DNA from: Galbibacter mesophilus
Lineage (GTDB): Bacteria > Bacteroidota > Bacteroidia > Flavobacteriales > Flavobacteriaceae
Length of the DNA stretch: 64,000 nucleotides
Assembly (NCBI RefSeq): GCF_023721415.1
Contig: NZ_JAMQVC010000001.1
Coordinates: 310,001 to 374,000, forward strand
Direction of reading: 5' to 3'
Positions 16,371 through 37,916 of this stretch are shown in pieces. Position numbers and translations under genes: made by a program. A model generated the notes under the pieces. The model was given only the letters and a program-made list of their open reading frames with translations. It ran no database searches and was not told the DNA's origin. Position 1 is the stretch's first letter. Each line of letters begins with the position of its first letter.

Positions 16371-16441
16371 CACGGGTGGAGAGATTCGAACTCCCATCAA
16401 CGGTTTTGGAGACCGGTATTCTACCCTTGAACTACACCCGT
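16371..16441 (-). tRNA. tRNA-Trp (anticodon CCA)
   Basis: The 71-base sequence folds as a cloverleaf on the minus strand. The acceptor arm ACGGGTG pairs with CACCCGT, the anticodon loop is CTCCAAA with CCA, and the T arm holds GTTCGAATC. The 3' CCA is not encoded (CAA follows). It lies between tuf and secE, an arrangement also seen in other phyla. Confidence 0.97.
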
Positions 16442-16446
16442 TTATT

Positions 16447-16491
16447 CAAGTTGAAAGGCATCCCGCCTGCGACGGGACACCCTTTAACTTG
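16447..16491 (-). promoter_or_regulatory. Long hairpin between tuf and tRNA-Trp
   Basis: CAAGTTGAAAGG (16447-16458) pairs with CCTTTAACTTG (16481-16491) with one bulge. An inner TCCCG/CGGGA stem occupies 16461-16477. It begins 16 bases after the tuf stop and ends 5 bases before the tRNA. No T-tract follows on the minus strand, so an RNA-processing signal separating tuf mRNA from tRNA-Trp is more likely than a terminator. Confidence 0.5.
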
Positions 16492-16507
16492 TTATACTGA
16501 TACGAAA

Positions 16508-17695
16508 TTAATCTAAAATTTCAGTTACCTGACCAGCACCTACTGTTCTACCACCTTCACGGATAGCGAAACGTAAACCTTTGCTCAATGCAATTGGCTG
16601 TAACAACTCAACAGTAATAGTTAAGTTATCTCCAGGCATTACCATCTCAACTCCATCAGGTAAAGTAATTGTACCTGTTACGTCTGTTGTACGAACGTAG
16701 AACTGAGGACGGTAGTTATTGTGGAATGGAGTGTGACGTCCACCTTCTTCTTTCTTAAGAACGTAAACCTCTGCTTTGAATTTAGCGTGAGGAGTTACAG
16801 AACCTGGCTTACAGATAACCATACCTCTTTTGATATCGGTTTTCTCGATACCTCTTAAAAGAATACCTACGTTATCTCCAGCTTCACCTCTATCTAATAT
16901 CTTACGGAACATCTCAACCCCTGTAATAGTAGAAGCCAATTTCTCTGCTCCCATACCGATGATATCTACAGCCTCACCAGTTTTAGCAACACCTGACTCA
17001 ATACGTCCAGTTGCAACTGTACCACGACCTGTAATTGTAAATACATCTTCGATAGGCATTAAGAAATCTTTATCAATATCTCTCTGTGGCAATTCGATCC
17101 ACTCATCAACAGCTTCCATCAACTTCATTACAGAGTCAACCCACTTTTGCTCACCATTCAAAGCACCTAGAGCAGAACCAGGAATAACAGGACCGTTATC
17201 TCCATCATACTCGTAGAAAGAAAGTAATTCTCTTACTTCCATATCAACAAGCTCTAAAAGCTCCTCATCATCAACCATATCAACTTTGTTCAAGAAAACA
17301 ACGATTCTTGGAACACCTACCTGACGACCTAAAAGGATGTGCTCACGAGTTTGTGGCATAGGACCATCTGTAGCAGCAACTACCAAAATAGCACCGTCCA
17401 TCTGAGCAGCACCTGTAACCATGTTCTTTACGTAATCCGCGTGACCAGGACAGTCAACGTGTGCATAGTGACGATTTGCTGTTTGATACTCTACGTGAGA
17501 AGTATTAATTGTGATACCTCTTTCTTTTTCTTCAGGAGCGTTATCGATTGAATCGAATGAACGTGCATCAGAAAAACCAGCATCAGCTAAAACTTTAGTA
17601 ATAGCAGCAGTTAAAGTAGTTTTACCGTGATCTACGTGTCCAATTGTACCTATATTTAAGTGTGGTTTGGAACGATCAAAAGTTTCCTTTGCCAT
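16508..17695 (-). CDS. tuf: Elongation factor Tu
   Basis: EF-Tu (395 residues) delivers aminoacyl-tRNA to the ribosome. The GTPase motifs are present: GHVDHGKTT at about residues 19-27, DCPGHADY and NKVD. Domains 2 and 3 are full length, ending in [14 protein letters not shown]. It is preceded by tRNA-Thr(GGU) by 55 bases and followed by tRNA-Trp, so its mRNA must be released from a mixed tRNA-mRNA transcript by processing. Confidence 0.99.
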
Positions 17696-17750
17696 GATTT
17701 AATAATTTAATCTTAGTTATATATTAGTGTTCAAATTTAAACGCAACAAG

Positions 17751-17822
17751 AGCCAATGACGAGAATTGAACTCGTGACCTCTTCCTTACCAAGGAAGCGC
17801 TCTACCCCTGAGCTACACCGGC
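17751..17822 (-). tRNA. tRNA-Thr (anticodon GGU)
   Basis: A 72-base cloverleaf. The acceptor arm GCCGGTG pairs with CATTGGC using G-T wobbles, the anticodon loop is TTGGTAA, and the T arm holds GTTCAATTC. CCA is not encoded. It is the last of four tRNAs before tuf. Confidence 0.97.
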
Positions 17823-17990
17823 TAATAAGTTTAAGCTTTTCAGTTTATAAAAAATAAGCTTTTAAAAACGCTTTAAACAAAAACCATAAACTCAAAGTAC
17901 TAGAATTAGAGAAGAGAACACACCTTATTTCCTTAAGATAGTCTCATCTCTATTTTACAGACTTATAAAAACAAGCCCTTATCTATTTAG

Positions 17991-18063
17991 AGCGGGAGAC
18001 GAGGTTCGAACTCGCGACATTCAGCTTGGAAGGCTGACGCTCTACCAACTGAGCTACTCCCGC
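17991..18063 (-). tRNA. tRNA-Gly (anticodon UCC)
   Basis: A 73-base cloverleaf. The acceptor arm GCGGGAG pairs with CTCCCGC, the anticodon loop is CTTCCAA (TCC), and the T arm holds GTTCGAAC. CCA is not encoded. A spacer of 168 bases, AT-rich and without a recognised gene, separates it from tRNA-Thr(GGU). Confidence 0.97.
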
Positions 18064-18125
18064 ATTATTTTTAAATTCCTAACTATACTTCCGCAAACAT
18101 ATTGCCATACCCGAAGTAAGTTTTG

Positions 18126-18208
18126 TGGGGAGAGCAGGATTCGAACCTGCGAAGGTAAAAACCAACAGATTTACAGTCTGTCCTCGTTGGCCGCTTGAGT
18201 ATCTCCCC
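18126..18208 (-). tRNA. tRNA-Tyr (anticodon GUA)
   Basis: An 83-base class II tRNA with a long variable arm. The acceptor arm GGGGAGA pairs with TCTCCCC, the anticodon loop is CTGTAAA (GTA), and the T arm holds GTTCGAATC. CCA is not encoded. Confidence 0.97.
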
Positions 18209-18371
18209 AATTTTTTCTGAACAATGAATCTCAATTCCCTATTCAAAAATTCCGAGCGCAAAAATAATTATTATTTCTCAATAAACAATCATATTTTTCA
18301 TCTTTTTGCAAAGATTATTTTTACACTGCTAGAAATCATCAAATTATCAAAAAACACTACTCTTTTTATTG

Positions 18372-18445
18372 AGCCGATGGAGGGACTCGAACCCACGACC
18401 TGCTGATTACAAATCAGCTGCTCTAGCCAGCTGAGCTACATCGGC
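18372..18445 (-). tRNA. tRNA-Thr (anticodon UGU)
   Basis: A 74-base cloverleaf. The acceptor arm GCCGATG pairs with CATCGGC, the anticodon loop is TTTGTAA (TGT), and the T arm holds GTTCGAGTC. CCA is not encoded. It is the first tRNA of the cluster, 10 bases after the T-tract of a terminator hairpin. Confidence 0.97.
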
Positions 18446-30247: not shown

Positions 30248-30820
30248 ATGAAAAAGAAAATTTTAAAATCGGTCTTAGCATTCTCCGTAGTTATTGGCTC
30301 TTCTGCCTTTAAAGATTTGGACACGAAAAAAGTAGATGCTGAAAAAAGCGAAATTACATGGAAAGGGTACAAAGTTACTGGTTCCCATGTAGGAAATGTA
30401 ACTTTAAAAAGCGGAGAACTCGCTTTTGATGACGACAAATTGGTAGGTGGAAACTTTACAGTAGACATGACAACCATTGGTTCAACTGATTTGGAAGGAG
30501 AGTACAAAACCAAACTAGACGGACACCTAAAGTCTGATGACTTTTTTGGCGTTGAAAACCATCCAACAGCTAAACTGTCTTTCACAACCGTAAAGGCGAC
30601 AGGTAAAAACTCTTACGAGGTTACAGGCGACCTAACCATTAAAGGTGAAACCCACCCAGTTACTTTTGATTTATCTGTTTACGGAAATAAAGCGACAGCC
30701 AACGTAAAAATTGATAGAACAAAATACAATGTTCGTTACGGTTCGGGGAGTTTCTTCGATAATCTTGGTGACAAAACCATTTACGACGAGTTCGACCTTG
30801 TAGTAGATTTGGTTTTCTAA
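30248..30820 (+). CDS. YceI family lipocalin-like periplasmic protein
   Basis: A 190-residue protein with a signal peptide (residues about 1-20) and a YceI beta-barrel. The segments SEITWKGYKVTGSHVGNVTLKSG, DGHLKSDDFFGVENHPTAKL and GDLTIKGETHPVTFDL are characteristic. YceI proteins bind polyisoprenoid or quinone-like lipids in the periplasm. Pairing with a nitroreductase under a MarR repressor suggests a quinone or electrophile stress module. A terminator follows 29 bases after the stop. Confidence 0.93.
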   Translation: MKKKILKSVLAFSVVIGSSAFKDLDTKKVDAEKSEITWKGYKVTGSHVGNVTLKSGELAFDDDKLVGGNFTVDMTTIGSTDLEGEYKTKLDGHLKSDDFFGVENHPTAKLSFTTVKATGKNSYEVTGDLTIKGETHPVTFDLSVYGNKATANVKIDRTKYNVRYGSGSFFDNLGDKTIYDEFDLVVDLVF

Positions 30821-30849
30821 AAATTGTTTATGAAAGAGAAAGAAGAAAG

Positions 30850-30875
30850 AGGAGCTGTAAAAGGCTCCTTTTTTT
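30850..30875 (+). terminator. Intrinsic terminator after yceI
   Basis: AGGAGC (30850-30855) pairs with GCTCCT (30864-30869), followed by a run of T residues to 30875. It ends the marR-nitroreductase-yceI transcript. Confidence 0.8.
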
Positions 30876-30926
30876 GTATAACAATGTCACAATCAATATA
30901 AAATTAGTGGTAATTATTCTTTTTTG

Positions 30927-30957
30927 TTTGAAAGTTTAAAATTGATTTCTATATTTG
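30927..30957 (+). promoter_or_regulatory. trp operon promoter
   Basis: TTTG (30927-30930), a 19-base spacer and TATATTTG (30950-30957) match the Bacteroidota promoter consensus exactly. Transcription should start about 30962-30965, within a few bases of the leader-peptide ATG at 30966. Confidence 0.75.
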
Positions 30958-30965
30958 AAACATAA

Positions 30966-31022
30966 ATGAGAACATTCAGAACAAATACATGGTGGTGGTC
31001 TAACTTACGTAAAACGTCGTGA
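30966..31022 (+). CDS. trpL: trp operon leader peptide (18 aa, three consecutive Trp codons)
   Basis: The short frame reads MRTFRTNTWWWSNLRKTS and stops at TGA 31020-31022. Three tandem TGG codons occupy 30990-30998. With the terminator hairpin downstream, this is the hallmark of ribosome-mediated transcription attenuation. When Trp-tRNA is scarce, a ribosome stalls on the Trp codons and the antiterminator forms. When it is plentiful, the ribosome reaches the stop codon and covers the antiterminator arm. No Shine-Dalgarno site is present and the promoter suggests a very short 5' leader. Confidence 0.88.
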   Translation: MRTFRTNTWWWSNLRKTS

Positions 31023-31089
31023 GGTAGCATTGCTGTAGTATTTTAAAAAAATATGTAAAGGCTTGTCAATCACGACAAGCCTTTTTTTT
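31016..31089 (+). promoter_or_regulatory. trp attenuator: antiterminator arm and intrinsic terminator
   Basis: The terminator is AAAGGCTTGTC (31057-31067) paired with GACAAGCCTTT (31074-31084), followed by a T run to 31089, 22 bases before trpE. GTCGTGA (31016-31022), at the leader stop codon, is complementary to TCACGAC (31070-31076), which covers the loop and the start of the 3' arm. Pairing of these would prevent the terminator. The arms are seen; the switching follows the known mechanism. Confidence 0.82.
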
Positions 31090-31110
31090 GTTAAAACCAG
31101 AAGAAATTAT

Positions 31111-32511
31111 ATGAAATCGTATTCCTTAAAAACCCATTACAAACAAATACTTGCCGACACTATTACTCCGGTTAGCGTGTATTTGAAAATTCGTGACCGT
31201 TTCCCAAATAGTATCTTGTTGGAAAGTAGTGACTACCATGCCAACGATAACAGTTTTTCATACATCTGTTTCAATCCTATTGCTACTATCAAAGTGGAAA
31301 ATGGCATCATTTCAAAAACATTTCCAGACGGAGTTGCTTCCGAAGAAAAAATAAACGGAGATATTCATATACCTTCGGAAATTGAAAATTTCACCAAATA
31401 TTTTAAGACGGAAAAAAGTGACTTCAAGTTTATAAACAACGGTTTGTTTGGATACATAGCATATGATGGAGTACAATATTTTGAGGATATAGAAATCACT
31501 AAAAAGGAAGGTTCCTTAGATATTCCCGACATTTTTTATGCGGTTTACCAAAATATTATTGCCATTAATCACTTTAAAAATGAAGCCTATATATTTTGTC
31601 ACAGTTACGGCGACGAAAACAATATTGAAGAAATACATCAACTTTTGCAAGCGAAAAACTATGCTTCGTATAACTTTTCCAAAGTCGGGGAACCTACTTC
31701 CAAATTAGAAGACAACGACTACAAAAAGCTAGTTGAGCAAGCTAAAAAACATTGCCATCGTGGAGATGTTTTTCAATTGGTGTTAAGCAGACGTTTTGCT
31801 CAAAAATTTAAAGGTGATGAATTTAACGTGTACAGAGCTTTAAGGTCTATAAATCCTTCTCCCTATTTGTTTTATTTCGACTACGGAAATTTTAAAATTT
31901 TTGGAAGTTCACCTGAAGCTCAACTTGTTGTTAAAGATAACAAAGCTGAAATTCATCCCATTGCAGGAACGTTTAAAAGAACGGGGAATGATGAAAAAGA
32001 TGCTGAGCTGGCAAAACAACTGGCTGCCGACGAGAAAGAAAATAGTGAACACGTAATGTTGGTAGACCTTGCGAGAAACGACTTAAGCAGAAATGGTAAT
32101 ACCGTGGAAGTGGAAACTTACAGGGAAGTTCAGTTTTTTTCACACGTTATTCATTTGGTTTCCAAAGTTACGGGGCAGAAAAAGAAAGAAATTCCAACCA
32201 TGCAAGTGGTGGCAGATACCTTCCCTGCCGGGACGCTCAGTGGAGCACCAAAATATATGGCTCTTAAATTAATTGACAAATATGAGGCTACAAACCGAGG
32301 TTATTACGGCGGGGCCATTGGTTTTATGGATTTCGACGGAAATTTTAACCATGCAATCATGATTAGGACATTCTTAAGTAAAAACCACGAACTGTATTAT
32401 CAAGCGGGTGCGGGAATTGTATCGGAGTCGAAACCGGAAAACGAATTACAAGAAACCTATAATAAATTGGGTGCTTTGAAAAAAGCAATGGAAATGGCAG
32501 AAGATATTTAG
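31111..32511 (+). CDS. trpE: Anthranilate synthase component I
   Basis: TrpE makes anthranilate from chorismate with ammonia from TrpG. From ATG 31111 the protein has 466 residues. The feedback motif LLES (36-39), which binds tryptophan, is kept, so allosteric inhibition is expected. The catalytic C-terminal half shows VLSRRF, HPIAGTFKRTG, LVDLARND, GTLSGAPK and GAGIVSES. The frame is open to a TTG at 31063, but that lies inside the attenuator hairpin. The close relative PabB is excluded by the operon and by the Trp-specific leader. Confidence 0.97.
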   Translation: MKSYSLKTHYKQILADTITPVSVYLKIRDRFPNSILLESSDYHANDNSFSYICFNPIATIKVENGIISKTFPDGVASEEKINGDIHIPSEIENFTKYFKTEKSDFKFINNGLFGYIAYDGVQYFEDIEITKKEGSLDIPDIFYAVYQNIIAINHFKNEAYIFCHSYGDENNIEEIHQLLQAKNYASYNFSKVGEPTSKLEDNDYKKLVEQAKKHCHRGDVFQLVLSRRFAQKFKGDEFNVYRALRSINPSPYLFYFDYGNFKIFGSSPEAQLVVKDNKAEIHPIAGTFKRTGNDEKDAELAKQLAADEKENSEHVMLVDLARNDLSRNGNTVEVETYREVQFFSHVIHLVSKVTGQKKKEIPTMQVVADTFPAGTLSGAPKYMALKLIDKYEATNRGYYGGAIGFMDFDGNFNHAIMIRTFLSKNHELYYQAGAGIVSESKPENELQETYNKLGALKKAMEMAEDI

Positions 32512-32533
32512 TGGTTTATAGTAAATCACGTTT

Positions 32534-32577
32534 TCATCCTAAGCTTGCCTGCCTTTCGGACGGTAAGGTCGAAGGAT
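32534..32577. repeat. Palindromic intergenic repeat, trpE-trpG gap (variant with insert)
   Basis: The unit starts TCATCCTAAGCTTG and ends GTCGAAGGATA, the same ends as the copies near 34.3, 35.9 and 38.0 kb. Here about 20 extra bases, themselves able to pair (GCCT against AGGT-like arms), lie between the halves. Confidence 0.6.
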
Positions 32578-32598
32578 ATTAAATTATAGTAAAAGAAT

Positions 32599-33162
32599 AT
32601 GAAAAAAATATTAGTTATAGATAACTATGATAGTTTCACGTACAATTTAGTACATTACTTGGAAGATTTAGGTTGCGAAGTCACGGTTAAAAGAAACGAC
32701 CAATTAACTCTTGAAGAAGTGGCGCCTTTTGATAAGATAGTGCTTTCTCCAGGGCCTGGCATACCGGATGAGGCCGGACTTTTAAAAGAAATTATTCGTA
32801 CATACGCCCCTACAAAAAGTATTTTTGGAGTTTGCTTGGGTCAGCAAGCCATTGGAGAGGTTTTTGGAGGAAAACTCATCAATATAGATGAAGTGTATCA
32901 CGGGGTGGCTACAAAAATTAAGGTCTCAACAGATAATCCCATATATAAAGATTTACCAGAAGAAATTGAAGTCGGCCGTTACCATAGTTGGGTGGTAGAC
33001 CCCAATTTACCCGATGTACTAAAAGCAACTTCCTACGATGAAAACGGACAAGTTATGTCGCTTACCCATACGGAGTATGATGTGTGTGGAGTGCAATATC
33101 ATCCCGAATCGGTTTTAACGCCAGAAGGGAAAAAGATTTTGGAGAATTGGCTACATTCCTAA
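32599..33162 (+). CDS. trpG: Anthranilate synthase component II (glutamine amidotransferase)
   Basis: TrpG releases ammonia from glutamine for TrpE. The 187-residue class I amidotransferase has the oxyanion region SPGPGIPDEAG, the nucleophile Cys79 in GVCLGQQAIGE and the His168 and Glu170 pair in VQYHPES. It is a stand-alone subunit, not fused to TrpD. An 87-base gap with a palindromic repeat separates it from trpE. A shared role with a PabB elsewhere is possible, as in other bacteria, but no sign of it is seen here. Confidence 0.96.
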   Translation: MKKILVIDNYDSFTYNLVHYLEDLGCEVTVKRNDQLTLEEVAPFDKIVLSPGPGIPDEAGLLKEIIRTYAPTKSIFGVCLGQQAIGEVFGGKLINIDEVYHGVATKIKVSTDNPIYKDLPEEIEVGRYHSWVVDPNLPDVLKATSYDENGQVMSLTHTEYDVCGVQYHPESVLTPEGKKILENWLHS

Positions 33163-33259
33163 CCCCTCCCAAAGGAGATAGGTAATGAGGGACCAATAAA
33201 TTTTGAGAGTTAAAAATATCCAATAACCATTAAATAAATTTTTCCCTTCGGGGGAGCTA
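33163..33259. repeat. Repeat-rich trpG-trpD gap
   Basis: The gap of about 105 bases contains CCCCTCCCAAAGGAG near its left end and CCCTTCGGGGGAG near its right, with two halves of a CT-rich/GA-rich palindrome separated by AT-rich sequence. It looks like a decayed member of the CCCCTCC/GGAGGGG type of flavobacterial intergenic repeat. Confidence 0.4.
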
Positions 33260-33268
33260 GTGGGACTT

Positions 33269-34261
33269 ATGAAAGAAATACTAAACAGATTAATAAATCA
33301 CGAAACCATTTCGAAAGAAGAGGCCAAAAATGTATTGGTAAATATTTCCAATGGCGCTTATAACACGAGTCAAATTGCGGCTTTTTTAACCGTTTACATG
33401 ATGCGAAGCGTAACAATTGAAGAGTTGGAAGGTTTTCGCGATGCACTTTTAGAATTATGCTTAGCTGTAAACTTAGAAGATTACAATACCATCGATTTAT
33501 GTGGAACGGGCGGCGACGGTAAAGACACATTCAACGTCTCCACCCTTGCATCTTTTGTTACTGCCGGCGCTGGAGTACATGTTACTAAACACGGAAACTA
33601 TGGGGTTTCTTCCAAATGTGGGTCAAGTAACGTTATGGAGCATTTAGGAATTCAATTTTCCAATAATTTAGATTTCTTAAAAAAATCGATTGACGAAGCA
33701 GGGATTTGCATTTTACATGCACCTCTTTTTCATCCGGCTATGAAAAATGTTGCGCCTATCAGGAAGGAATTGGCCGTAAAAACCTTTTTTAACATGCTTG
33801 GGCCTATGGTTAACCCCGCATTTCCTAAAAACCAAATGGTGGGCGTTTTTAATTTGGAACTAGCAAGAATGTATGGTTATTTATACCAAAACACTGATAA
33901 AAATTACACGATTTTACATGCCCTGGATGGGTATGACGAAATTTCCCTTACTGGTCCAACGAAAGCCATTAGAAACCAAACCGAGCAAATGTTGCAAGCA
34001 TCCGATTTTGGTGTTAAAGAACACGGGCAAAATGATATTGTAGGCGGCGAAACCATAGACGCTTCAGCAAAAATTTTCGTGAATGTCCTTAGCGGAAAAG
34101 GGACAGAAGCACAGAACAATGTAGTTTGCGCCAATGCAGGAATGGCAATTGCCACCGTAAAGAATTTGAGTCCGATTCAAGGATTTGAGCAAGCCAAAGA
34201 ATCTTTATTAAGTGGAAAAGGGTTGGAGGCGTTTCAGAAATTAAAAAGTTTAACGATTTAA
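33269..34261 (+). CDS. trpD: Anthranilate phosphoribosyltransferase
   Basis: TrpD couples anthranilate to PRPP. From ATG 33269 it has 330 residues; a GTG nine bases earlier is less likely. The PRPP-binding loop GTGGDG lies at residues 79-84. The anthranilate-site segment KHGNYGVSSKCGSSN follows, with Arg and Asn residues in VAPIRKEL and FNMLGPMVNP. Length and motifs are standard. Confidence 0.97.
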   Translation: MKEILNRLINHETISKEEAKNVLVNISNGAYNTSQIAAFLTVYMMRSVTIEELEGFRDALLELCLAVNLEDYNTIDLCGTGGDGKDTFNVSTLASFVTAGAGVHVTKHGNYGVSSKCGSSNVMEHLGIQFSNNLDFLKKSIDEAGICILHAPLFHPAMKNVAPIRKELAVKTFFNMLGPMVNPAFPKNQMVGVFNLELARMYGYLYQNTDKNYTILHALDGYDEISLTGPTKAIRNQTEQMLQASDFGVKEHGQNDIVGGETIDASAKIFVNVLSGKGTEAQNNVVCANAGMAIATVKNLSPIQGFEQAKESLLSGKGLEAFQKLKSLTI

Positions 34262-34293
34262 GAATTGAAAATTTAAGGAATACAGAGATATAT

Positions 34294-34361
34294 AGTCTTC
34301 GACAAGCTCAGTCTGAAATTGAAACTAACCCTAAAGTCATCCTGAGCCTGTCGAAGGGCAT
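34294..34361. repeat. Inverted pair of palindromic repeats, trpD-trpC gap
   Basis: One copy in reverse orientation (CTTCGACAAGCTCAG, about 34297-34311) faces a forward copy (CTGAGCCTGTCGAAG, about 34342-34356). The two arms can form a 15-bp hairpin with one mismatch in the polycistronic mRNA. Confidence 0.7.
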
Positions 34362-34380
34362 TTTTAACCAATTAACTAAA

Positions 34381-35175
34381 ATGAACATCTTAGATAAAAT
34401 AGTAGCCGATAAAAAAAAGGAAGTTGCTTTAAAAAAGCAGTTAATTCCAATTTCACAATTGGAGTCGAGTGTGCTTTTTGAGCGTGATTGTATTTCTTTG
34501 GCTGAAAAATTGAAAATAAGTGAAACCGGTATTATCGCCGAACACAAACGACGTTCGCCATCGAAATCGGTTATTAATCAGTCGTTAAATGTACAAGATG
34601 TAGCCGTCGGATACGAAAATGCTGGTGTTTGTGGGATGTCGGTTTTAACAGATGGAAAATATTTTGGCGGCTCTTTAGATGATTTGTTATTGGCTAGAGC
34701 ATCTGTAAAAATGCCTCTGTTACGAAAGGAATTTATTGTGGACACTTATCAAATGCTGGAAGCCAAAGCTTACGGAGCAGATGTAATTTTGCTTATTGCT
34801 GCTATATTAACTCGCGAAGAAATCAAATTATTTTCAGAAACTGCAAAAAATCTCGGTTTGGATGTTTTGTTGGAAGTTCATAACGAAGAAGAACTTCAAA
34901 AATCCGTTATGCCAAGTTTGGATATGCTCGGTGTAAACAATAGGAATTTAAAAACATTCGATGTCAGTTTGGATGTAAGCAAGTCGCTTTCAGAAAAAAT
35001 CCCGAACGATTTTGTAAAAGTTTCCGAAAGTGGCATAAGCTCCGTAGAGGCCATTCAAGAATTACAGCCGTTTGGTTACAAAGGGTTTTTAATTGGTGAA
35101 AACTTTATGAAAACCGACAATCCAGGTGAAAGTGCTACTGAATTTATAAAGGGCCTTTCGGATAAACAATTATGA
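34381..35175 (+). CDS. trpC: Indole-3-glycerol phosphate synthase
   Basis: TrpC closes the indole ring of the carboxyphenylamino-deoxyribulose phosphate intermediate. It has 264 residues in a TIM barrel. Catalytic segments are IIAEHKRRSPSKS (Glu54, Lys56), LLRKEFIVDTYQ, LLEVHNEEEL, GVNNRNLKTF and SESGIS. It is a separate gene, not fused to TrpF as in enterobacteria. trpF starts 10 bases after its stop. Confidence 0.97.
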   Translation: MNILDKIVADKKKEVALKKQLIPISQLESSVLFERDCISLAEKLKISETGIIAEHKRRSPSKSVINQSLNVQDVAVGYENAGVCGMSVLTDGKYFGGSLDDLLLARASVKMPLLRKEFIVDTYQMLEAKAYGADVILLIAAILTREEIKLFSETAKNLGLDVLLEVHNEEELQKSVMPSLDMLGVNNRNLKTFDVSLDVSKSLSEKIPNDFVKVSESGISSVEAIQELQPFGYKGFLIGENFMKTDNPGESATEFIKGLSDKQL

Positions 35176-35185
35176 ATTTTAAGTA

Positions 35186-35887
35186 ATGAAACGATTTCAT
35201 TTAAATATCGAGAACCAAGAAAAAGCCTCGTCCCCGCTCCAGGGAGAATTAAGGAGAGGACTCCTCAAAATCTGCGGAATGAAATTTCTCGATAATATTG
35301 AAGCAGTTGCGAAGCTTCAACCGGATTACCTAGGTTTTATTTTTTATGAAAAATCGGCTCGTTTTAATGAAGACAATGTGCCAAATTTACCAGCTGGTAT
35401 TCAAAAAATTGGTGTATTTGTAGATGCTGAAATTGATTTCGTTCTTGAAAAAGTAAAAAATCATCAATTGCATGGAATACAATTACACGGAAATGAATCT
35501 CCTGAATATTGCCGACAGCTAAAAAACAAGTTAAATTCATTAGAAACAGGCATTAAAATTATTAAAGTATTCTCCATAAAGGATGAATTCGATTTCTCCG
35601 TTTTAAACCCCTTCGAAACCGTGGTCGATTTTTACCTGTTTGATACAAAAGGAAAACTTCCCGGTGGAAATGGATACACTTTTAATTGGGAAGTGCTTAA
35701 AAATTATCCATCCGAAAAGCCATTTTTTTTGAGCGGAGGCATTGGAATGGAGGAACTGGAAAAACTTAAAAGTTTAGATTCTAACCTACCGATTCATGCC
35801 ATCGATGTGAATAGCAAGTTTGAGTTGGAACCAGGATTAAAAAATGTAGAATTACTAAAAGAGTTTATATACCAACTAAGGTTTTAA
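35186..35887 (+). CDS. trpF: Phosphoribosylanthranilate isomerase with in-frame N-terminal insertion
   Basis: TrpF performs the Amadori rearrangement before TrpC. The 233-residue product has the catalytic Cys30 in [27 protein letters not shown] and the Asp in DVNSKFE. Most TrpF proteins start a few residues before KICG and are about 200-210 long. Here 25 extra residues precede, including [13 protein letters not shown], encoded by a palindromic DNA element (35230-35261). No ATG, GTG or TTG codon lies in frame between ATG 35186 and the Cys codon, so the extension must be translated. The fold itself looks intact. Confidence 0.93.
35230..35261. repeat. Palindromic element inside the 5' end of trpF
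   Basis: GTCC-CCG-CTCC (35230-35240) pairs with GGAG-A-GGAC (35253-35261). Its CT-rich to GA-rich design resembles the element in the trpG-trpD gap. It is translated in frame as part of the TrpF extension. Confidence 0.5.
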
Positions 35888-35912
35888 AACTCACAATAAA
35901 ATAGAAAAATTA

Positions 35913-35937
35913 GTCATCCTGAGCTTGTCGAAGGATA
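35913..35937. repeat. Palindromic intergenic repeat, trpF-trpB gap
   Basis: GTCATCCTGAGC followed by TTGTCGAAGGATA is the clean 25-base form of the repeat. A TTG inside it opens a longer trpB frame, but this is not a credible start. Confidence 0.75.
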
Positions 35938-35954
35938 AAATTTTGTCAAAGCAT

Positions 35955-37139
35955 ATGAAAACATACAACGTCAACGAAAAAGGATATTACGGAGATTTCG
36001 GAGGTGCATACATCCCTGAAATGCTGTATCCAAATGTGGAAGAGTTACGTCAACAATATCTTTCTATTATGAATGAGGATTCTTTTAAAGAGGAGTTCCA
36101 TCAACTTTTAAAAGATTATGTCGGCCGTCCTTCCCCCTTGTATTTTGCCAAAAGAATGTCTGAAAAACATGGCGCTAAAATTTATCTTAAGCGAGAAGAC
36201 CTCAACCATACTGGAGCGCACAAGATAAACAACACCATTGGTCAGATTTTAATGGCAAAGCGATTGGGCAAAAACCGAATTATCGCCGAAACAGGTGCTG
36301 GGCAGCATGGTGTTGCTACCGCTACTGTTTGTGCGCTTATGGGAATAGATTGCGTGGTTTATATGGGAGAAATAGACATTGACCGCCAAGCGCCAAATGT
36401 TGCCCGAATGAAAATGTTGGGCGCCGAGGTCCGACCAGCAAAGTCGGGTAGCCGCACTCTGAAAGATGCCACCAACGAAGCCATTCGCGACTGGATTAAT
36501 AATCCGGTAGATACACATTACATTATTGGTTCCGCTATTGGTCCGCATCCTTATCCAGATATGGTTACGCGTTTTCAGAGTATCATTTCAGAGGAAATAA
36601 AATGGCAACTGAAAGAAAAAGAAGGTCGCGAAAATCCGGATTATGTGGTCGCTTGTATTGGTGGCGGAAGTAACGCCGCAGGAACCTATTATCATTTTTT
36701 AGAGGATGAAAAAGTAGGAATTATCGCTGTAGAGGCTGCTGGAAAAGGAGTCGATTCTGGTGAAAGTGCTGCTACTTCCGCATTGGGAAAAGAAGGTATA
36801 ATTCATGGATGTAAAACTTTGCTGATGCAAACAGGAGACGGACAAATAACGGAGCCGTATTCTATTTCTGCGGGATTGGATTACCCTGGCGTGGGACCCA
36901 TGCACGCACATTTGTACCGCTCTGGTCGTGGTGAATTCTTCTCCATTACCGATGAAGATGCCATGAAAGCCGGATTGGAATTGTGTAAAACGGAAGGTAT
37001 TATTCCGGCTATTGAAAGTTCGCATGCTTTAGCAATTTTCCATCATAAAAAATTCAAAAAGGATGATGTCATTGTAATCAACCTTTCGGGCCGCGGCGAC
37101 AAAGATTTAAACACATACATCGATTATTTTGATTTGTAA
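35955..37139 (+). CDS. trpB: Tryptophan synthase beta chain
   Basis: TrpB condenses indole with serine using PLP. From ATG 35955 the protein has 394 residues. The Schiff-base Lys is residue 90 in HTGAHKINN. The phosphate-binding loop [10 protein letters not shown] and the segment [11 protein letters not shown] are present. The family start [14 protein letters not shown] is close behind the chosen Met. This is the TrpB1 form that partners with TrpA, whose gene follows after 12 bases. Confidence 0.98.
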
Positions 37140-37151
37140 AAAAGAATATCA

Positions 37152-37916
37152 ATGAATAGAATTCATAAAAAATTACAGGAAGACAAAAAATTATTGTCCA
37201 TATATTTTACAGCAGGATACCCCAACCTAGAAGATACCGTACCGATTATTGAGCAATTGCAAAAAAGCGGTGTGGACATGTTGGAAATCGGACTCCCATT
37301 TTCCGATCCGCTTGCTGACGGACCTACCATTCAGGAGAGCTCTACCCATGCCCTTACAAACGGAATGACAACTGCAAAACTGTTCGAGCAACTAAAAGAT
37401 ATTAGAAAAACTGTTAATATTCCTTTAATCATCATGGGATATTTTAACCCCATGATGCAATATGGCGTTGAGGCTTTTTGTAAAAAATGTAACGAAATTG
37501 GGATTGACGGACTCATAATTCCCGATCTCCCTGTGGATGTTTACAACGAAGAATACCGATCTATTTTTGAAAAGTACAACCTCATCAACGTGTTCTTAAT
37601 TACGCCACAAACCTCCGAAGATCGTATTAGATTTATCGATTCTGTTTCCAACGGATTTATTTACATGGTGAGTTCGGCCAGCGTTACTGGAGCTAAAAAC
37701 ACCTTTGGGGATGCACAAAACCAGTATTTTGAAAGAATTTCCAATATGAAACTGAAATCACCGCAAATTGTGGGGTTTGGAATTAGTAATGCCGAAACGT
37801 TTAAAGCGGCTACCAAGTATGGAAAAGGCGCCATTATTGGCTCGGCTTTTATTAAAATGATTAAAGAAAAAGGAATTGAAGGTATCGATGATTTTGTTAA
37901 ATCCATCCGATTATAA
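37152..37916 (+). CDS. trpA: Tryptophan synthase alpha chain
   Basis: TrpA cleaves indole-3-glycerol phosphate and passes indole through a tunnel to TrpB. The 254-residue TIM barrel has catalytic Glu46 in EIGLPFSDP and Asp56 in LADGPTIQ. The phosphate site GFGISNAE and the active-site loop segment VSSASVTGAKN are also present. It ends the trp operon and is convergent with galM. Confidence 0.97.
   Translation: MNRIHKKLQEDKKLLSIYFTAGYPNLEDTVPIIEQLQKSGVDMLEIGLPFSDPLADGPTIQESSTHALTNGMTTAKLFEQLKDIRKTVNIPLIIMGYFNPMMQYGVEAFCKKCNEIGIDGLIIPDLPVDVYNEEYRSIFEKYNLINVFLITPQTSEDRIRFIDSVSNGFIYMVSSASVTGAKNTFGDAQNQYFERISNMKLKSPQIVGFGISNAETFKAATKYGKGAIIGSAFIKMIKEKGIEGIDDFVKSIRL

Follow-up and report, generated by a model that had tools for sequence, protein, structure and literature searches.

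A conserved trp attenuator with a predicted near-leaderless 5′ end upstream of the trp operon of Galbibacter mesophilus

The trp operon of G. mesophilus is preceded by a real and complete trp attenuator that belongs to an already known RNA family, and the near-leaderless 5′ end of this attenuator, as predicted from the promoter position, appears to be conserved among relatives. The element lies in a 64,000-nt stretch of DNA (the window, to which all coordinates refer). Its parts, their conservation, and the partner-specific pairing of its helices are established by the sequence and by comparison with related loci. Bacteroidota ribosomes hide their anti-Shine-Dalgarno sequence. We estimate a probability of about 0.8 that the element works as a ribosome-mediated attenuator, the leader ORF of which would be read from a near-leaderless mRNA.

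Results

Element and downstream operon

A cmscan search gave a full-length match to RF01692 (Bacteroid-trp; model positions 1–131) at 30946–31067 of the window, scoring 68.4 bits (gathering score, 49), and Pfam assignments placed this element upstream of a complete trpEGDCFBA operon, in which the ATG of trpE is at 31111. The closest named TrpE relatives among the matches listed were those of Joostella atrarenae (88%) and a Galbibacter (86%). The antiterminator and the complete terminator fall outside the RF01692 model, which here starts inside the −7 promoter box, ends in the 5′ arm of the terminator, and therefore covers promoter DNA. At an E value of 0.001, RF01692 matched in 31 of 60 relatives and in 42 of 395 genomes from the phylum; five trpE-bearing family genomes that it missed (G009, G010, G018, G026, and G031) did have the leader. 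Elsewhere in the window, five tRNA genes were clustered at 16371–18445 on the − strand. The features of the element and its operon were as follows.

30927–30930, + strand: −33 promoter element TTTG, 19 nt before the −7 box (read from the sequence)
30950–30957, + strand: −7 promoter element TATATTTG, which matches the published Flavobacterium consensus TAnnTTTG
30962–30963, + strand: predicted transcription start, 4 or 5 nt after the −7 box (from published spacing)
30966–31022, + strand: leader ORF MRTFRTNTWWWSNLRKTS, 18 codons, with ATG at 30966–30968 and the stop codon TGA at 31020–31022
30990–30998, + strand: three tandem Trp codons (TGG ×3), the sensor (read from the sequence)
30983–30988/31038–31043 and 30989–30997/31028–31036, + strand: outer helix, which holds the Trp codons (MFE fold, partner permutation)
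31004–31009/31018–31023, + strand: protector hairpin, which hides the antiterminator arm (fold, partner permutation)
31016–31022/31070–31076, + strand: antiterminator, 7 bp (exact arms GTCGTGA/TCACGAC, partner permutation)
31057–31089, + strand: intrinsic terminator, stem 31057–31067/31074–31084 and T run (terminator scan, fold versus shuffles)
31111–37916, + strand: trpE, trpG, trpD, trpC, trpF, trpB, and trpA (ORFs and Pfam)

Leader ORF and its conservation at trpE loci

The original prediction had described an 18-residue peptide with three adjacent Trp codons, and both its coordinates and its reading were confirmed. The start of the leader was unambiguous because an in-frame TAA (30963–30965) adjoined the ATG and no other ATG, GTG, TTG, or CTG occurred in the leader frame between this ATG and the first TGG. 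Taken alone, TGGTGGTGG was weak evidence (5 occurrences in the window versus 0.27 expected), as was the box pattern TAHHTTTG (58 versus 61.7 expected); the weight comes from the combination of the parts and from their conservation.

For the comparison, trpE loci were gathered by protein similarity, without reference to the leader. Set A consisted of the best 80 of at least 590 confirmed stretches and thus covered close relatives only; set B consisted of 54 trpE loci from 60 Flavobacteriaceae genomes; and set C represented the wider phylum (n = 20), comprising all 14 class members outside the family and six more distant ones, from 59 matching genomes. The three sets overlapped in part (L129 and L148 are one example). 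Leaders carrying two or three Trp codons in tandem were present at 80/80 loci of set A (best 80 of at least 590), 53/54 of set B, and 18/20 of set C. Retention of the Trp codons in relatives had been proposed beforehand as a check on the attenuator, and it was borne out at 133 of the 134 Flavobacteriaceae loci in sets A and B, which include some duplicates and, for set A, the best 80 of at least 590. Three Trp codons stood in tandem in 129 of 139 leaders and two in the remaining 10. No tandem-Trp leader was found at L192 and L221, and L207, which had only a W-L-W ORF, was counted as a miss. Within the family sets, eight loci had their leader more than 400 nt ahead of the trpE match.

Promoter and predicted 5′ end

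The TATATTTG box stands 8 nt before the leader ATG. In F. psychrophilum, the consensus TAnnTTTG was reported at positions −12 to −5 (PMC9723704), and at the probable promoters of F. johnsoniae the transcript starts 4–5 nt after the −7 box, the −33 element being weak in the same data (PMC6847099). This published spacing gave a predicted 5′ UTR of 3–4 nt for the window. As for the general lengths of leaders, 87% of the predicted F. johnsoniae transcripts from probable promoters have leaders over 10 nt (PMC6847099), leaderless mRNAs account for 5.5% in F. psychrophilum (PMC9723704), and 5′ UTRs shorter than 10 nt make up about 3.7% in B. thetaiotaomicron (PMC7366714). The consensus promoter claimed in the original prediction was present as a box, but a sigma-70-style reading of it (match 10/12) was dropped because TTTG-N19-TATATTTG was better read as a Bacteroidota promoter of the −33/−7 type. 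The near-leaderless start claimed there fits the promoter position, which was conserved in many relatives, and the start itself stands as a prediction.

An inverted repeat (AGGAGC/GCTCCT) followed by a T run was read by eye at 30850–30876, after the YceI gene, and is probably the YceI terminator; the automated terminator scan listed this repeat on the − strand only. As the probable terminator of the YceI gene, it would insulate the trp promoter. This repeat bears on the possibility that the true start lies upstream, at another promoter or by read-through from YceI, so that the box near the ATG is idle and the element is an ordinary leadered attenuator. We consider such an upstream start unlikely. 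The box near the ATG is a predicted promoter only, its pattern is common at chance level in the window, and in Flavobacterium-like relatives it stands 16–20 nt before the ATG; however, the repeat separates the YceI gene, no further TAHHTTTG was found on the + strand in 30669–30949, and the box was kept with TTG at a spacing of 19–21 nt upstream in 108 of 131 nonredundant leaders that had a strict box and enough upstream sequence. Furthermore, the gap between box and ATG was 4–8 nt at 57/80 loci of set A (best 80 of at least 590), which also argues for a start close to the ATG. The other loci of this set (best 80 of at least 590) had gaps of 14–30 nt (19 loci), with none at 9–13 nt, or lacked a strict box (3) or an ATG leader (1). 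The gaps in set B were 4–9 nt at 20/54 loci, 10–12 nt at 6, and 14–33 nt at 23, with 3 loci lacking the box and 2 an ATG leader, and those in set C were 4–8 nt at 6/20 loci, 10 nt at 2, and 16–32 nt at 3, with 7 lacking the box and 2 a leader. The box was even closer to the ATG in many relatives than in the window.

The predicted UTR, taken as the gap minus 4, was calculated for 132 nonredundant strict-box leaders of the family and class (those from set A being from the best 80 of at least 590). It was 0–5 nt in 80 of the 132 leaders, including 47 with 0–1 nt, 6–9 nt in 8, and 10 nt or more in 44, which were A-rich. A strict split into two classes of UTR length was weakened by the 8 intermediate leaders. 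Only one transcribed in-frame ATG preceded the Trp codons in 72/80 short leaders (66/80 when GTG, TTG, and CTG were also counted). The leaders of L132 and L167 start with TTG, with the box about 17 nt upstream in both, and the ATG-only trait of the short class is a weak contrast to them because this class was defined through ATG.

The short box-to-ATG gap might be neutral, the promoter position drifting with no effect on translation of the leader. Short, intermediate, and long forms all occur (80, 8, and 44 of 132), and orthologous leaders presumably work with either form. Nevertheless, we find a neutral gap doubtful, since the two forms cluster by clade and differ before the ATG. In the Allomuricauda-Maribacter-Arenibacter clade, 51 of 53 loci (within the best 80 of at least 590) were short, one was long, and one was unclassed. 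In a quick TrpE tree of set A (best 80 of at least 590) and the window, with 77 rows labeled short or long, the label changed 4 times compared with 17.3 times when shuffled (0/500 shuffles as low), a count that is inflated by near-copies; starred branches force only 1 change. Short forms were found in Galbibacter/Joostella, Allomuricauda/Flagellimonas, Christiangramia, Zunongwangia, Robiginitalea, and nearly all of the Maribacter-Arenibacter-Cellulophaga group, and long forms in Aquimarina, Olleya, Xanthomarina, Mariniflexile, Neptunitalea, Pareuzebyella, and the one Flavobacterium on the tree. In the short class, 82% of leaders had A at −1 and 58% had C at −2, which fits a transcript start adjoining the ATG, and just 16% had A at −3, whereas the long class had A at −3 in 82% and an A-rich leader resembling the Kozak-like context described for F. 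johnsoniae.

Alternative RNA helices in the window

The 7-bp antiterminator that had been predicted over the leader stop codon has exact arms, and the pair GTCGTGA/TCACGAC occurred once in the window and in 0 of 100 shuffles. The strong terminator predicted before trpE was likewise recovered, with a fold of −16 kcal/mol (z −7.7) that none of 200 shuffles equaled. The two structures are mutually exclusive because they share 31074–31076. On the − strand as well, a T-rich run comes after the hairpin at 31057–31084, so this hairpin may also stop antisense transcription.

The protector hairpin and the outer helix, which were absent from the original prediction, also belong to the element. The arms of the protector are CTTACG (31004–31009) and CGTGAG (31018–31023). 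This hairpin was weakly better than shuffles in the window (z −1.88, 9/200), and the region 30962–31076 folded no better than shuffles (z −0.42, 67/200); support for the protector and the outer helix rests on the comparison with relatives. The untranslated RNA hides the antiterminator arm, so that termination should be the default. With the leader masked to 31010, as by a stalled ribosome, the antiterminator formed in RNAs ending at 31076 or 31080, and the terminator in those ending at 31084 or 31087. At full length with the leader masked, the forced antiterminator lay 0.8 kcal/mol above the terminator state. Since the terminator state was lower at full length even when masked, the switch would have to be kinetic.

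Comparative analysis of alternative pairing

The pairing was compared in 143 nonredundant leaders of sets A, B, and C with a recognized terminator; L188, L209, L216, and L220, which the terminator finder missed, were dropped. TCGTGA was present in 110 of the 143 leaders. Its distance from the last Trp codon was 18–19 nt in 107 of these, and it lay in reading frame 0, 1, and 2 in 87, 22, and 1, respectively. The fixed distance with a changing frame pointed to conservation of the RNA, and conservation of the C-terminal residues of the peptide in their own right was therefore rejected. This result also bears on the idea that there is no attenuation and that the peptide instead has a separate function, such as the one proposed for Sinorhizobium peTrpL. 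The C-terminal NLRxTS recurs, and a trans role was reported for S. meliloti peTrpL (PMC7298713), but the conserved letters shift frame and pair with the terminator, and we regard a peptide role in place of attenuation as highly improbable. A peptide role may exist in addition to attenuation.

In the 33 leaders without TCGTGA the arm differed, and the partner often differed with it; examples of such co-varying arms and partners are TTTGTCGCAATA/AATTGCGACAAG (L181), CCGGGG/CCCCGG (L205), and, outside the class, CTCAGTGA/TCACTGAG (L219). For 29 of these 33 leaders, those inside the class, the duplex energy with the leader's own partner was compared with that of permuted partners, ignoring kinship between leaders. 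The diverged leaders did not look alignable, and this partner-swap analysis was used in place of an alignment-based pair count. The antiterminator had a mean of −8.56 with its own partner and −6.02 with permuted partners (sd 0.40; 0/5000 permutations as good), and the protector −6.10 and −3.88 (sd 0.34; 0/5000). The corresponding values were −8.60 and −7.32 for the outer helix (0/5000), with 1/5000 permutations as good when the last two Trp codons were left out, and −2.88 and −3.13 for a control segment (4053/5000). Pairing was poor at some diverged loci (L170, L208, and L210). The covariation of the alternative stems that had been suggested as a check was thus found as partner-specific pairing in the 29 diverged leaders, but not in the 110 TCGTGA leaders, where own pairing was no better than swapped pairing (−10.03 versus −10.05), as expected when the arms are near-identical; these leaders therefore carry no covariation evidence.

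Other leaders and genome-wide pattern

Across the genome of the window, TATATTTG-N3-9-ATG occurred 26 times versus 24 for a reversed control pattern, and genome-wide leaderlessness was rejected. Among ordinary genes, 82 of 884 ORFs had a box within 60 nt, 5 of them at a gap of 3–9 nt; this background is only a rough check because 45 of the 82 had a gap of 22 nt and probably represent one orthologous gene beside trp. Leaderlessness of all attenuators in the genus was rejected by the hisG leaders. A poly-His leader was present at 16/18 hisG loci, and the gap was 18–19 nt in all seven members of the genus, with a gap of 6 nt at one locus outside it (L266). The hisG leader in the genome of the window (L262) encodes HHHH in MTIFTSHHHHFHAFAQAR and has a terminator-like hairpin; it is leadered, with a box-to-ATG gap of 18 nt.

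Leaders rich in Ile, Leu, and Val occurred ahead of ilvD in the genome of the window (L274) and, among ilv leaders, at L269, L276, L279, and L280; at L269, L274, and L280, two leader ORFs, each with a terminator-like hairpin, stood in tandem. The arrangement TAATATTG-N5-ATG was found ahead of ilvD in 7/7 genus members, where it belongs to the first leader, and in one further genome (8/17 loci). Judged from this arrangement, the ilv leader of the genus may share the near-leaderless form, a case that is tentative because TAATATTG departs from the consensus at one position. The near-leaderless trp form is therefore not generic and is perhaps not limited to trp.

Discussion

The claim of ribosome-mediated trp attenuation was sustained by RF01692 membership, by the tandem Trp codons at 133/134 loci, and by the partner-specific pairing in diverged relatives. 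We infer the start site, initiation of the leaderless type, and the response to tryptophan, which would operate as follows. RNA polymerase would start at about 30962–30963, leaving 3–4 nt ahead of the leader AUG. A ribosome would load on this 5′-proximal AUG with the help of neither a Shine-Dalgarno site nor an A-rich leader. Under a shortage of Trp-tRNA, the ribosome would stall on the three Trp codons, opening the outer helix and masking the 5′ arm of the protector; the freed GTCGTGA would then pair with the emerging TCACGAC while the terminator stem is still incomplete, and transcription would continue into the operon. When Trp-tRNA is plentiful, the ribosome would reach the UGA inside GTCGTGA and cover this arm, and the terminator would form. 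With no ribosome, the protector would occupy the antiterminator arm, giving termination as the default.

A possible broader reading, which we hold tentatively and at somewhat below even odds, is that Bacteroidota, in which Shine-Dalgarno sites are not used and leaderless mRNAs are rare, favor near-leaderless starts for certain regulatory leader ORFs, namely that of trp and perhaps, in this genus, that of ilv, and that lineages have switched between TATATTTG-N5-ATG and a Kozak-like A-rich leader. If this switching is true, a single family would contain orthologous attenuators read by two initiation modes. The two forms would bear on start-codon selection by ribosomes that make no use of Shine-Dalgarno sites: near-leaderless and leadered versions with the same readout appear to occur in related culturable species, and trp read-through would report directly on initiation at each. 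The analysis also exposed a gap in the Rfam family, in which part of the conserved 5′ block is promoter, and the antiterminator and most of the terminator are outside the model.

Weinberg et al. listed RF01692 in 2010 (PMC2864571), and the element was also recorded for the trp operon of F. psychrophilum (PMC6414381), a species in which leader-peptide attenuation of amino-acid operons was inferred (PMC9723704). A comparative study suggested leaderless signals for Bacteroidetes genes generally (PMC5397173), which the F. johnsoniae data, as far as they are drawn on here, do not support as a general rule. Searches of open-licence papers found neither leaderless leader peptides nor a conserved near-leaderless trp variant for Bacteroidota. 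Attenuation in the phylum and a leaderless trp leader in Sinorhizobium are thus already known, and the new element would be the conserved near-leaderless variant in Bacteroidota.

The window element can be set beside four known systems, the first of which is that of enterobacteria. The enterobacterial trp attenuator has a tandem-Trp leader peptide and alternative protector, antiterminator, and terminator helices. The window element resembles this commonly described arrangement in its tandem Trp codons and three alternative helices; it differs in that its antiterminator takes up the terminator loop and the start of the 3′ arm, in the overlap of the antiterminator arm with the leader stop, and in a leader without a Shine-Dalgarno site. 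In mycobacteria, poly-Cys leaderless upstream ORFs were reportedly described by Canestrari in 2020. These ORFs (PMC4633059) are similar to the window leader in being short, leaderless, and rich in the regulated amino acid, whereas the amino acid there is cysteine, and leaderless mRNAs are common in mycobacteria but a small minority in Bacteroidota. The described RF01692 elements, like that of the window, lie ahead of trpE and have Trp codons, a protector, and an outer helix; the model differs in having no antiterminator and no complete terminator, and a near-leaderless start is not mentioned in the part of PMC2864571 considered here. Finally, the trp attenuator trpL/rnTrpL of S. meliloti has an RNA of which the leader ATG forms the very 5′ end (PMC7298713); the predicted start in the window is 3–4 nt before the ATG. 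Although S. meliloti is an alphaproteobacterium with Shine-Dalgarno-using ribosomes and its attenuator controls only trpE(G), according to the portion of that work used here, the two systems are alike in layout.
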